64,000 bases of DNA, taken from Oligoflexia bacterium. GTDB taxonomy: Bacteria; Bdellovibrionota_G; JANQFH01. The notes below the pieces were generated by a model. That model was not told where the DNA came from, ran no database searches, and saw nothing but the letters and a program-made list of their open reading frames with translations. The stretch covers positions 62,001-126,000 of the forward strand of contig JANQFH010000012.1 of the NCBI GenBank assembly GCA_028277945.1. Direction: 5' to 3'. Below are positions 8,939-11,904 of the stretch, piece after piece. The position numbers and the translations under genes were made by a program. Every line of letters begins with the position of its first letter. The stretch's first letter is position 1.

Positions 8939-10210
8939 TCAATCCTTATTTTGGATCTGTATCTTCTCTATCTTTGCATCAAAAAGACCAACCGTCTCTT
9001 TTACGTACGGGTCTTCAATAGTCTCTCGAGACTTTGGGTTCTGTCGCCGGTCAACAATTGATTTTTTCACTTCATGTTGATCACCCTGGAGAAGACTCAA
9101 CGCTTCGCGGACAGTCATAAAATCGCCTCTTACATGGCACATCTTGATAACCGTAGTCTCTACAAGATAAGTCTCTTGCTGTGAGTGATGCATTTCCAAA
9201 ATGGCGCGTTTAACGAGGTCAAAATAGCGTTCCAGTTCAATTTGGGTTGTCTCCGCAAACAATCCCTCTAACTCGGACACTTCATCCGCGGTTAGACTGA
9301 TCTCACTGGCCTTCAGACCCACCTTGATGAGAAGAGCATGGCGGATTTCTTCCAGTAGGCTCTCGAGGAAGCGTCTAAGTTCGTAGCCGGCAAAGTAGAT
9401 TGCATGCATATCTTTGACCGCAGATGCCGTATCCCCTGCAACAACATGCTGTAGCAATTGCATCATGGAACTACGATCCACCAAACCAAGTAGCTCGCGT
9501 GCTTCTTCATCAGGTATCTGCATGCCACAGTAGGATATCAGACGATCAAACAAGGTCAGAGCATCACGCACACTGCCTTGAGCCTCTCTTGCAGTGGCGT
9601 ATAGAATCGTGTCAGAAACATCGATACCTTCTGACTCACTGATCTTCCGCAGCTGTTTGGCAATGACGTCTCTACTGACACGTTTGAAGTCAAAACGTTG
9701 GCAACGAGACACGATGGTATCAGGAAGTTTATGCGGCTCTGTAGTTGCAAAGATAAACACGATACCACTAGGCGGTTCTTCTAGCGTCTTTAACAGCGCG
9801 TTAAAAGCCGCTTTGGAAAGCATGTGCACCTCATCAATGATGTAGATCTTGTACTTCCCTTTAACGGGGAGATACTGGATGTTCTCTTTAAGTTCACGCA
9901 CGTCATCCACTCCGGTGTTGGAGGCGCCGTCAATCTCGAGCACCTCCAGCGAGGCACCCGAGCTGATCGCCTTACAGCTGGGGCATTGGCTGCAGGGTGA
10001 AGGCGTGGGACCGGATTCACAGTTCAGAGCTTTGGCAAGGATTCGCGCGGTTGAGGTCTTACCTACGCCCCTGACACCGGTAAAGAGATAGGCGTGGGCA
10101 ATACGATCTCGCTCAATGCTGTTCTGCAACGTCTTGGCGATATGCGCCTGGCCAATAAGCTCAGAGAATTCGCTAGGTCGCCATTTTCTTGCAAGTACTT
10201 GATATTCCAT
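8939..10210 (-). CDS. dnaX: DNA polymerase III gamma/tau subunit DnaX, short form
   Basis: AAA+ clamp-loader subunit. The Walker A GVRGVGKT is at residues 45-52, a zinc-binding C4 set at Cys64, 73, 76 and 79, Walker B 'YIIDEVHML', and sensor/arginine-finger region 'FATTEPHKLPDTIVSRCQRF'. At 423 residues it stops after the clamp-loader collar domain. The long C-terminal tau extension that binds DnaB helicase and the alpha subunit is absent, so only a gamma-like product is encoded unless recoding occurs; I see no obvious slippery A-run at the end. It starts 11 bp from the 3' end of the SRP RNA gene and heads dnaX-ybaB-recR. Confidence 0.95.
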   Translation of the reverse strand: MEYQVLARKWRPSEFSELIGQAHIAKTLQNSIERDRIAHAYLFTGVRGVGKTSTARILAKALNCESGPTPSPCSQCPSCKAISSGASLEVLEIDGASNTGVDDVRELKENIQYLPVKGKYKIYIIDEVHMLSKAAFNALLKTLEEPPSGIVFIFATTEPHKLPDTIVSRCQRFDFKRVSRDVIAKQLRKISESEGIDVSDTILYATAREAQGSVRDALTLFDRLISYCGMQIPDEEARELLGLVDRSSMMQLLQHVVAGDTASAVKDMHAIYFAGYELRRFLESLLEEIRHALLIKVGLKASEISLTADEVSELEGLFAETTQIELERYFDLVKRAILEMHHSQQETYLVETTVIKMCHVRGDFMTVREALSLLQGDQHEVKKSIVDRRQNPKSRETIEDPYVKETVGLFDAKIEKIQIQNKD

Positions 10211-10220
10211 AATAAAGCCT

Positions 10221-10322
10221 AATAGCCAGGCTTCTCTGCGGCAGGCTCAACCAGCGACTACCGCTGCTTCCTTCCGGACCTGACGGGTTTCATCGTAGTA
10301 AGCTCGCACAGGACCCGGCTAT
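10221..10322 (-). ncRNA. ffs: Bacterial signal recognition particle RNA (4.5S type)
   Basis: On the minus strand the sequence contains the universal SRP domain IV core: the GTCAGGTCCGGAAGGAAGCA segment with the GGAA tetraloop, the asymmetric loop, and matching flanking helices. The ends pair (ATAGCCGGG against CCTGGCTAT), giving a single ~100-nt hairpin of the short 4.5S type without an Alu domain. The RNA binds the Ffh M domain; ffh lies 25 kb away in this window. Placement directly upstream of dnaX is a common gene order. Boundaries are accurate to a few bases. Confidence 0.95.
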
Positions 10323-10398
10323 CAGGCAAGTTAAGACCTCCTTCGGTTTCGCAATCCCTTCGCAATCCCAGGGTTATTTGTCGCAGCTTTGCTGCGAC

Positions 10399-10552
10399 TG
10401 TCACAATTATACGTCTCTCCTTCGGAGAGGGAGGGATGCCGGCGGCCTACGGCCCCGGATCCCTAGAGTTATTAGGCGTCGCTAAAGCGATGCCTGTAAG
10501 AATTGTAAGCCTCTCCGTTCAAGCATTGCGTAGCAAAGCTTGAACGGAGAGG
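10399..10552 (-). repeat. Palindromic extragenic repeat abutting tRNA-Ser(GCU), copy 1
   Basis: This block is shared with 11561-11738. Reading on the plus strand it holds, in order: a short CTCTCC/GGAGAG hairpin (10415-10429); a GC-rich hairpin GGGAT...ATCCC (10433-10463); a GGCGTCGCT/AGCGATGCC hairpin (10475-10494); and a palindrome with arms CTCTCCGTTCAAGC (10511-10524) and GCTTGAACGGAGAG (10538-10551). The last arm contains the 3' acceptor end of the tRNA. A core of about 67 bp is identical to copy 2, with a C/T difference in one hairpin stem that keeps pairing (G-C versus G-U). In this copy the outer palindrome has shrunk to a 3-nt loop form. The minus strand is downstream of the tRNA, so it may act in tRNA 3' processing or termination; no U-run is present. 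Confidence 0.75.
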
Positions 10553-10635
10553 GAGGGATTCGAACCCTCGGTAGAGCTTTTAGGCCCTACAGTCGATTAG
10601 CAATCGACCGCCTTCAGCCACTCGGCCACCTCTCC
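10545..10635 (-). tRNA. tRNA-Ser, anticodon GCU
   Basis: The minus strand folds as a long-variable-arm tRNA. The 5' acceptor GGAGAGG pairs with 3' CCTCTCC and the discriminator is G, the serine identity base. The D-arm is GGCCGAGTGGCTGAAGGC, and the anticodon arm GTCGA-TTGCTAA-TCGAC gives GCU (reads AGC/AGU). The extended variable arm is followed by T-arm GAGGGTTCGAATCCCTC. CCA is not encoded. The 3' seven bases also form part of a palindrome continuing downstream. Confidence 0.95.
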
Positions 10636-10655
10636 AAGTACCCAAAAAGCAAGTT

Positions 10656-10684
10656 AGTCTTATTGAAAAGCAGATAGGTGTCAA
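10656..10684 (-). promoter_or_regulatory. Candidate sigma-70 promoter for tRNA-Ser(GCU)
   Basis: On the minus strand a perfect TTGACA (10679-10684) is followed 17 bp later by AAGACT (10656-10661), a weak -10 (3 of 6 matches). The tRNA 5' end lies about 20 nt further, a suitable distance. The -35 is convincing; the -10 choice is uncertain. Confidence 0.35.
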
Positions 10685-10700
10685 CTCCGCCAACGTCCCA

Positions 10701-11498
10701 TCAAAGCTTGACGCCATTGCCAAACTTTTTTGCAGCCGCGTCGTAGAGTTGCAGAGCCTCGGGTAAGTGCGCCTCTAGATTACGGATTCGTGTTGACGAT
10801 GCTGGATGGGTAGAGAGAAATTCCGGCGGTGCGCCAGCTGAGCTCTGTTGAAAACGCTGCCAAAAGCTCACAGCTGCTCGTGGATCATAGCCTGCCTTGG
10901 CCATATACTTAAGACCGACAAGATCGGCATCCGTCTCATGGCTGCGGCTGTAGGGCAACATAATGCCCACCGTGGCACCCGCACCCATAAGGCCTAACAG
11001 AGTATTCTTCTGCTTTGAATTGCCAAGAGAGAGCTCGGCCACGGACATACCCAGATCCAACACCATAGACTGGGTAATCCGCTGCCCAGAATGGCGTAGG
11101 ATGGCGTGGGCAACTTCATGGCCAAGTACGGCAGCCATACCCGCTTCATTCTGCATGGCTGGTAGAATACCCGTATAGACAGCCACCTTACCACCTGGCA
11201 TACACCAAGCGTTCTGTTCTTTCGACTCGATCAAAGTAAACTGCCAATCAAATCCGGTCTGGCTGGTCTGCGCGGCAATGCCGTTGCCAACCCTCTGCAG
11301 AATTTCGTTGAGACGTGGATCTCTGTTGATCTTAGCCTCTGACAAAACCTCGCGATAGCCGTCAGCACCGAGTTGGTTTTCAAAACTTGGCGAAGTCAGG
11401 ATAAAGGCAGACTTGTTGGAGTCGGGCAGTTTGATGCAGGCGCAGAAGAACAGCACCAGGATCGTTGAAACAACGGCTATTGAATTTGTTGTTCGCAT
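10701..11498 (-). CDS. M48-family zinc metalloprotease, lipoprotein (LoiP/YcaL-like)
   Basis: A 265-residue peptidase whose N-terminus 'STILVLFFCAC' makes Cys21 a plausible lipidation site. The zinc site is HEVAH (residues 127-131), with the third ligand Glu in 'SHETDADLVGLKYMAKAGYDP' and the family tail 'LSTHPASSTRIRNLEAHLP'. This matches single-domain periplasmic M48 proteases (LoiP, YcaL, BepA without TPR) involved in outer-membrane protein quality control. ATG 11498 is chosen because GGAGG lies just upstream; the longer frame to 11555 has no ribosome site. It stands alone between two tRNA-Ser/repeat blocks. Confidence 0.88.
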   Translation of the reverse strand: MRTTNSIAVVSTILVLFFCACIKLPDSNKSAFILTSPSFENQLGADGYREVLSEAKINRDPRLNEILQRVGNGIAAQTSQTGFDWQFTLIESKEQNAWCMPGGKVAVYTGILPAMQNEAGMAAVLGHEVAHAILRHSGQRITQSMVLDLGMSVAELSLGNSKQKNTLLGLMGAGATVGIMLPYSRSHETDADLVGLKYMAKAGYDPRAAVSFWQRFQQSSAGAPPEFLSTHPASSTRIRNLEAHLPEALQLYDAAAKKFGNGVKL

Positions 11499-11560
11499 CT
11501 TTCCTCCATAACTTGCAGGGTTGTTAACCTCTTCCACCATCGAGGGGTGGCTCACCTACT

Positions 11561-11738
11561 GTCACAATTATACGCCTCTCCGTTCAAGTGTTGCATAGCA
11601 ACACTTGAACGGAGAGGGAGGGATGCCGGCGGCCTACGGCCCCGGATCCCTAGAGTTATTAGGCGTCGCTAAAGCGACGCCTGTAAGAATTGTAAACCTC
11701 TCCGTTCAAGCTTTGCTACGCAAAACTTGAACGGAGAG
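11561..11738 (-). repeat. Palindromic extragenic repeat abutting tRNA-Ser(CGA), copy 2
   Basis: Second copy of the block at 10399-10552, here with both bordering palindromes intact. Palindrome 1 (11576-11616) is a perfect 19-bp stem with a 3-nt loop, arms beginning CTCTCCGTTCAAG. Then come the GGGAT...ATCCC hairpin, a perfect GGCGTCGCT/AGCGACGCC hairpin, and palindrome 2 (11698-11738) with one C-A mismatch. Palindrome 2 merges into the tRNA 3' end, and palindrome 1 carries the same GGAGAGGGAGGGAT run found at the tRNA end, as if the tRNA 3' terminus had been duplicated on the far side of the element. The neighbourhood 11499-11904 has no protein gene other than the start of transaldolase. Confidence 0.75.
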
Positions 11739-11818
11739 GGAGGGATTCGAACCCTCGATTCGGTTGCCCGAATAACGGTTTTCGAGACCGCCGCCTTCAA
11801 CCACTCGGCCACCTCTCC
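11732..11818 (-). tRNA. tRNA-Ser, anticodon CGA
   Basis: The minus strand folds into a serine tRNA with acceptor GGAGAGG/CCTCTCC, discriminator G and D-arm GGCCGAGTGGTTGAAGGC. The anticodon loop CTCGAAA gives CGA (reads UCG), and a long variable arm precedes T-arm GAGGGTTCGAATCCCTC. No CCA is encoded. The T and acceptor arms are identical to those of the tRNA-Ser(GCU) 1.2 kb away, and both genes carry the same downstream palindromic element. Confidence 0.95.
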
Positions 11819-11904
11819 ACAACACAACAAACCCGGGTCGCAAGCGAAACAACCATAAAAATAACTACTTGACAAGGTATGAGCGGCTGCATAAGGTGCC
11901 GGCG

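Follow-up and report, generated by a model that had tools for sequence, protein, structure and literature searches.

Trailer cassettes bounded by copies of the tRNA 3' end in an Oligoflexia bacterium, with a layout like that of the RtT repeats of E. coli tyrTV

The two tRNA-Ser loci

The window, a stretch of 64,000 nucleotides from an Oligoflexia bacterium (contig JANQFH010000012.1, positions 62,001 to 126,000), contains two tRNA-Ser genes located 1.1 kb apart in the same orientation. A gene for an M48 peptidase lies between them; the SRP RNA gene and dnaX are found downstream of tRNA-Ser(GCT), and a transaldolase gene lies beyond tRNA-Ser(CGA). Each tRNA gene is followed by a trailer, here called a cassette, whose parts are given below in window coordinates. 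The genome containing the window is referred to as G000, and R1 denotes a model built from the core of its cassettes.

10221-10320: SRP RNA (Rfam)
10324-10421, minus strand: degenerate second unit behind the GCT cassette, with a TATAAT box at 10406-10411, ending beside the SRP RNA gene (R1 match, E 8e-6)
10423-10437, minus strand: far copy of the tRNA 3' end (ATCCCTCCCTCTCCG), GCT cassette (sequence; survey of tRNA-end copies)
10423-10543, minus strand: first cassette unit of tRNA-Ser(GCT), 121 nt, far tRNA-end copy included (95% identity to 11610-11730; R1 match at 10423-10517)
10432-10464, minus strand: arm AGGGAT...ATCCCT of the GCT cassette, paired to the T-stem portion of the far tRNA-end copy (fold)
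10474-10495, minus strand: middle stem-loop of the GCT cassette, with one A.C mismatch on the tRNA strand (inverted repeat and fold)
10502-10509, minus strand: CTTACAAT box of the GCT cassette (read from the sequence; common to other loci)
10510-10552, minus strand: long hairpin of the GCT cassette, its outer 8 bp being the acceptor 3' strand plus base 73 paired with their own reverse complement (inverted repeat I6)
10544-10636, minus strand: tRNA-Ser(GCT), CCA not encoded (ARAGORN; Rfam RF00005, 60 bits at 10545-10635)
11558-11617, minus strand: start of a second unit behind the CGA cassette, with a hairpin (11575-11617) located on the far copy and followed by CGTATAATTGTGACAG (sequence, inverted repeat)
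11610-11624, minus strand: far copy of the tRNA 3' end, CGA cassette (sequence; survey of tRNA-end copies)
11610-11730, minus strand: first cassette unit of tRNA-Ser(CGA), 121 nt (95% identity to 10423-10543; R1 match)
11619-11651, minus strand: arm AGGGAT...ATCCCT of the CGA cassette (fold)
11661-11682, minus strand: middle stem-loop of the CGA cassette, perfectly paired (inverted repeat and fold)
11689-11696, minus strand: TTTACAAT box of the CGA cassette (read from the sequence; common to other loci)
11697-11739, minus strand: long hairpin of the CGA cassette (inverted repeat I7)
11731-11819, minus strand: tRNA-Ser(CGA), CCA not encoded (ARAGORN; Rfam RF00005, 62.1 bits at 11732-11818)

Read on the minus strand, both cassettes have the same order: tRNA 3' end, long hairpin, TTACAAT box, stem-loop, CTCTAGGGAT, second arm, and ATCCCTCCCTCTCCG. 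At both loci the ATCCCTCCCTCTCCG at the far edge duplicates positions 59-73 of the tRNA. In the long hairpins, the outer 8 bp derive either from the tRNA itself, from its acceptor 3' strand with base 73 (10510-10552 and 11697-11739), or from the far copy (11575-11617). A second unit, partial or degenerate, stands behind the first at both loci.

The original prediction had described two blocks sharing about 67 identical bp plus hairpins, each ending in a tRNA-Ser with a different anticodon. The shared sequence is real and longer, a match of 148 nt at 95% identity (10423-10570 vs 11610-11757), and ARAGORN and Rfam both place the two tRNA-Ser genes (GCT and CGA) on the minus strand. The tRNA-end run CGGAGAGGGAGGGAT does recur at the far edge, but in both copies (10423-10437 and 11610-11624) and not in the second alone. 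The hairpin said to pair in spite of a C/T difference (10474-10495 vs 11661-11682) does so on the plus strand, through a G.T pair; on the tRNA strand, however, the GCT copy has an A.C mismatch.

Compared between the two loci, the trailers show 95% identity and the last 22 tRNA bases 100%, whereas the remaining tRNA reaches 69% and the flanks 52% and 45%. The likeness stays between the tRNA ends, except for 24 nt of the second unit. Because the identity is confined in this way, it is a cassette bounded by tRNA ends that the loci share; the tRNA gene was not duplicated. A simple local duplication of one tRNA gene with its trailer, the other origin originally offered, would fit two tRNA-Ser genes so close together and in the same orientation, but we find it scarcely credible: neither the tRNA bodies nor the flanks are as similar as the trailers, and the same core is found behind other tRNAs.

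Cassettes across the genome and the phylum

We surveyed the 47 distinct tRNAs of G000 for tail copies, defined as at least 10 nt of the tRNA's own end located 15 to 400 nt downstream. Twelve of the 47 have such a copy and none has one upstream; tRNA-Tyr, with 9 nt, narrowly misses the threshold. One core occurs on nine tRNA loci (Ser GCT, Ser CGA, a displaced Ser TGA, Tyr GTA, Lys TTT twice, Arg CCG, Pro CGG, and Pro GGG) and consists of TTATAAT or TTACAAT with variants, CCCTAGGAT or a near match, and a closing arm; each locus has the 3' end of its own tRNA. The idea of a small element at tRNA-Ser 3' ends therefore came close, but the element is not specific to Ser, since the core also lies behind Tyr, Lys, Arg, and Pro tRNAs. 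Looser relatives of this core are found behind Ala GGC and Lys CTT, and three of the 12 tRNAs with tail copies (Gln CTG, Ala CGC, and Phe) carry other cores. The unit size is roughly 80-125 bp, with 121 at the two Ser loci.

In nine of 13 G000 cassettes, the reverse complement of the own tRNA end within the cassette outscores the end of every other host; in the other four (Lys TTT at L051, Lys CTT, Phe, and Ala CGC) the own end is equalled or beaten by at least one other host. At Lys TTT the hairpin arm complements the 3' strand exactly; it does not copy the tRNA 5' strand, where a G.U pair occurs at this place. At Ala GGC, an inverted copy of 17 nt extends into the T-arm, past the far direct copy. 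Core similarity tracks the similarity of the host ends (rho 0.60 for 36 pairs, which are non-independent). CCA is encoded in nine of the 47 tRNAs of this genome (from a list read by eye) vs 100 of 106 tRNAs ending in CCA in the phylum relatives.

Several other repeats were seen in G000. The core of the Tyr cassette is tandemly doubled at L045:641-852, the second copy being without the long hairpin. Another dispersed palindromic repeat (TTATAG/TTACTG, GGGG(G)NCC..., CCCCGCGCTCAC) was seen behind tRNA-Arg TCT and CCT and inside the Lys CTT trailer, and a related palindrome behind Gln CTG (loci L019, L027, L013, and L048). The genome also has two tRNA-Ile/tRNA-Ala pairs of very different sequence (L008 on contig C45 and L009 on C63); C63 may be a foreign contig or hold a divergent operon.

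Whether copies exist outside tRNA loci had been left as a question by the original prediction. Two copies have no adjacent tRNA, L005 and L007, and the first of these proved to be the cassette of tRNA-Ser(TGA), displaced from it by an island that encodes a phage-type integrase (PF00589, E 1.8e-25) and leaves the tRNA-end copies ~8.2 kb apart. As the island is situated between tRNA and cassette, it is distinct from the cassette. The island (L043:5387-12992) also encodes an AbiEii-family gene and a Cro/C1-type regulator. L007, on contig C92, is a truncated copy of the core whose left flank is partly similar by eye, and there is no tRNA within the retrieved stretch.

No integrase was found in or beside the 121-nt unit, and the sole integrase examined belongs to the tRNA-Ser(TGA) island. 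The tRNA attachment sites of phages and integrative islands likewise have direct repeats of the tRNA 3' end at both edges, so that the earlier comparison with a duplicated attachment site is right about the direct repeat, although what it encloses is a trailer without an integrase. The cassettes could be attL plus attR, left after tRNA-targeting phages or islands lost their bodies: such integration leaves tRNA-end direct repeats, a real integrase island uses tRNA-Ser(TGA) in this very genome, and a longer partial tRNA copy is present at a tRNA-Thr of a relative (L095). We nevertheless consider this origin very unlikely, because independent decay would not yield one shared core between repeats at different tRNAs with unlike ends, inverted copies that match the host, and tandem units.

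G000 and four other genomes of the phylum have 153 distinct tRNAs (47 + 106). Tail copies of at least 10 nt occur downstream of 26 of the 153 and upstream of none (Fisher p 9e-9), and are not due to chance. The four relatives account for 14 of 106 downstream and 0 of 106 upstream; some of these 14 may be partial tRNA duplications or attachment sites (as at Thr L095). In the control genomes G014, G016, and G050, 0 of 88 distinct tRNAs (part of 133 tRNA matches) have a downstream copy, after discounting one match inside a tRNA, and there are two upstream matches; the difference between 26/153 and 0/88 has a p of 5e-6.

In the relative G001, one quite different core stands with tail copies behind Cys, Gly, Ser TGA, and Leu TAA, most of them ending exactly at CCA, and is damaged behind Arg TCG and Ser GCT. 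The inverted copy of the own end is absent from most cassettes of the relatives. Trailers L087, L157, L082, and L140 in G001 and G003 have a reversed T-arm copy (GATTCGAAC type), GTTCG/GTTCA, a T-rich run, a hairpin, CATGG, and the acceptor end, and are perhaps another cassette family.

Model R1, run over 385 genomes, gave nothing convincing beyond G000. Weak matches in three other genomes (E 0.002-0.008) were rejected, one being a tRNA cluster and the others lying without a nearby tRNA. A pattern search of viral contigs returned 6 loci, and no tRNA was present within 600 bases of any of them. A plasmid search returned 50 weak records, all with less than 80% query coverage; the ten matches listed are to the tRNA part.

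RtT repeats and similar trailers elsewhere

The tyrTV locus of E. coli K-12 is organised in the same way, as GGGGAAGGAT ... ATCCTTCCCC with AATCCTTCCCCCACCACCA for its tail copy, and its units are the RtT units of RF00391. As in G000, RtT (RttR) units lie directly behind the tRNA, repeat the tRNA 3' end (from position 58/59 onward) as their closing segment, have an outer helix in which this copy pairs with a reverse complement of the tRNA end, and occur in tandem. The G000 units differ in having another core (TTAYAAT, CCCTAGGAT), a long hairpin on the tRNA's own acceptor, and many host tRNAs. The motif TGAGAA, which follows the outer 5' strand, is invariant in the units of E. coli and of the genomes G095 and G135 and absent from the nine G000 cores. 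At E up to 5, RF00391 does not match the window stretch; it also has no match in L010, L051, L014, L035, L042, L045, and L040 at E up to 2, or in G000 at E up to 0.1. Rfam matches to sX4 and others fell below their gathering scores and were dismissed.

Over 143 genomes, RF00391 gave two sub-threshold matches, in G095 and G135, both behind tRNA-Ser with its own tail copies and host-matched outer helices. We built a model, R2, from the units of these two genomes and E. coli and ran it with strict filters over 385 genomes. Four genomes matched, two of them the model's own sources; the new ones are G363, with a match behind tRNA-Ser at one locus and no intact tRNA beside the match at its other loci, and G091, with a match behind tRNA-Arg(TCT). 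The order tRNA-Ser, SRP RNA, dnaX seen in the window (8939-10636) also occurs in the distant G095 (L238; SRP RNA and dnaX suggested by eye only), whose tRNA-Ser genes carry RtT-like cassettes.

The E. coli tyrTV query matched 5375 of 5426 genomes, and units were counted in the 60 records listed of 5391. Among these 60, loci have 4, 3, 2, 1, or 0 annotated RtT units, with ~178-bp steps in locus length. The first tRNA-Tyr of strains FWSEC0010, LF82, and 3150 joins directly to the sequence that lies behind the far copy in K-12; 3150 has no RtT unit, and E302 has one tRNA-Tyr left in a rearranged locus. Whole RtT units are precisely present or absent between E. coli strains, leaving aside the direction of change. 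E. coli records annotate RtT as an sRNA processed from the tyrT transcript. To our knowledge, RtT has so far been regarded as peculiar to a single E. coli tRNA operon, and among open-licence papers we found none on trailer cassettes flanked by tRNA ends in other bacteria. One paper mentions RtT in passing (PMC7657543).

Role, origin and meaning of the cassettes

Nine units fold with z from -1.8 to -7.0, and an alignment of four sequences has paired changes in the middle stem, above shuffles and slides. These observations are consistent with a functional RNA trailer that is co-transcribed with the tRNA, takes a tRNA-like fold on the tRNA's own acceptor, and is excised by tRNA-processing enzymes, its match to the host being kept by compensatory change. 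The far copy ending at base 73 or CCA, the sRNA annotation of RtT, and the relatives' units, which favour the tRNA strand in 9 of 14, point the same way. We regard such a trailer as possible but doubtful: DNA palindromes yield the same paired changes, E. coli strains without any unit exist, and in G000 pairing is strand-neutral (31 vs 30 G.U pairs, 7 vs 4 A.C mismatches, the tRNA strand better in just 6 of 13). When tRNA and cassette were folded together to see whether the far copy frees the acceptor stem, strand exchange was predicted in 12 of 13 and rescue in 0 (the 13th, Lys TTT L051, is mis-bounded by ARAGORN); energy rules that lack coaxial stacking do not decide this point, and the prediction carries no weight here.

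C-GNA-G triloops occur on either strand in 11 of 41 distinct G000 cassette hairpins (the related ones among them not being independent), in 2 of 327 hairpins in the rest of the window, in 8 of 711 in other G000 loci, and in 3 of 40 in the relatives' cassettes. GNA loops are unusually stable in DNA. Since pairing in G000 has no strand preference and the many C-GNA-G triloops stand in either orientation, we lean towards hairpins that act at the DNA level at least as much as at the RNA level.

Our preferred explanation, which we hold to be probable, is that the blocks are tRNA-trailer cassettes with the layout of RtT in tyrTV and another core, exchanged through the tRNA-end copies. A cassette sits flush against the tRNA 3' end and repeats that end (roughly positions 59-73) at its far edge, so that the tRNA would stay intact whether the cassette is absent, present, or doubled. 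Recombination between the flanking copies could expand or remove the cassette, or transfer a copy to a different tRNA gene with an identical 3' end, and exchange by this route between tRNAs with equal ends is likely; it would account for two Ser blocks that are alike exactly between the tRNA ends. By analogy, gain and loss of units in G000 would resemble that among E. coli strains. For ends that match a different tRNA, compensatory change, gene conversion, and fold-back copying are candidate routes. On the best reading, the G000 cassettes are a new, multi-tRNA variant of RtT-type trailer cassettes, RtT being the sole named relative found.

A different origin of the matching ends would be a mobile element that rewrites them: small hairpin parasites of tRNA genes would copy the new host's 3' end, direct and inverted, at each insertion. 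Synthesis folding back from the tRNA end is one conceivable mechanism, and a Y1 transposase or some other hairpin enzyme might supply the activity in trans. Ends matched to the host on six or more different acceptor sequences would agree with such an element, as would the Lys TTT arm that follows the 3' strand and the long inverted copy at Ala GGC, and Y1 transposase genes are present in all five phylum genomes. The situation recalls REP/RAYT systems, in which short palindromic hairpin repeats share a genome with Y1 transposase genes; the cassette ends, however, are derived from tRNA, and the repeats flanking two Y1 genes of G000 are, by eye, unrelated to the cassettes. Moreover, no enzyme is linked to the cassettes, no reverse transcriptase (RVT_1) was found in the five phylum genomes, and slow compensatory change could give the same result. 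We judge a self-rewriting element unlikely. If it did exist, its loss would always restore a working tRNA, and E. coli RtT, the trailers of G095, G135, and G091, and the phylum cassettes would be branches of one class.

The two G000 Y1 genes (L275, C61:13.1k, and L276, C9:48.8k) are flanked by inverted short repeats. One of these repeats has copies flush with the 3' end of tRNA-Thr(CGT) (L016), and copies of the other follow closely on the far tRNA-end copy in the Pro GGG cassette (L042). Two of 13 Y1 matches in the phylum lie ~140-200 bp behind a tRNA-Leu TAG and a tRNA-Trp, in the same orientation (L266, G002 C47, and L278, G004 C73).

The same layout is found behind many tRNAs and across several lineages, and its ends follow the host tRNA. 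Given this occurrence at many tRNAs and the precise presence or absence of units in E. coli, the nature and origin of the tyrT repeats can be tested in comparisons of tRNA 3' flanks among genomes. A direct repeat of a tRNA end is often taken for an integration site but can also mark a short cassette free of integrase, which calls for caution in interpretation.
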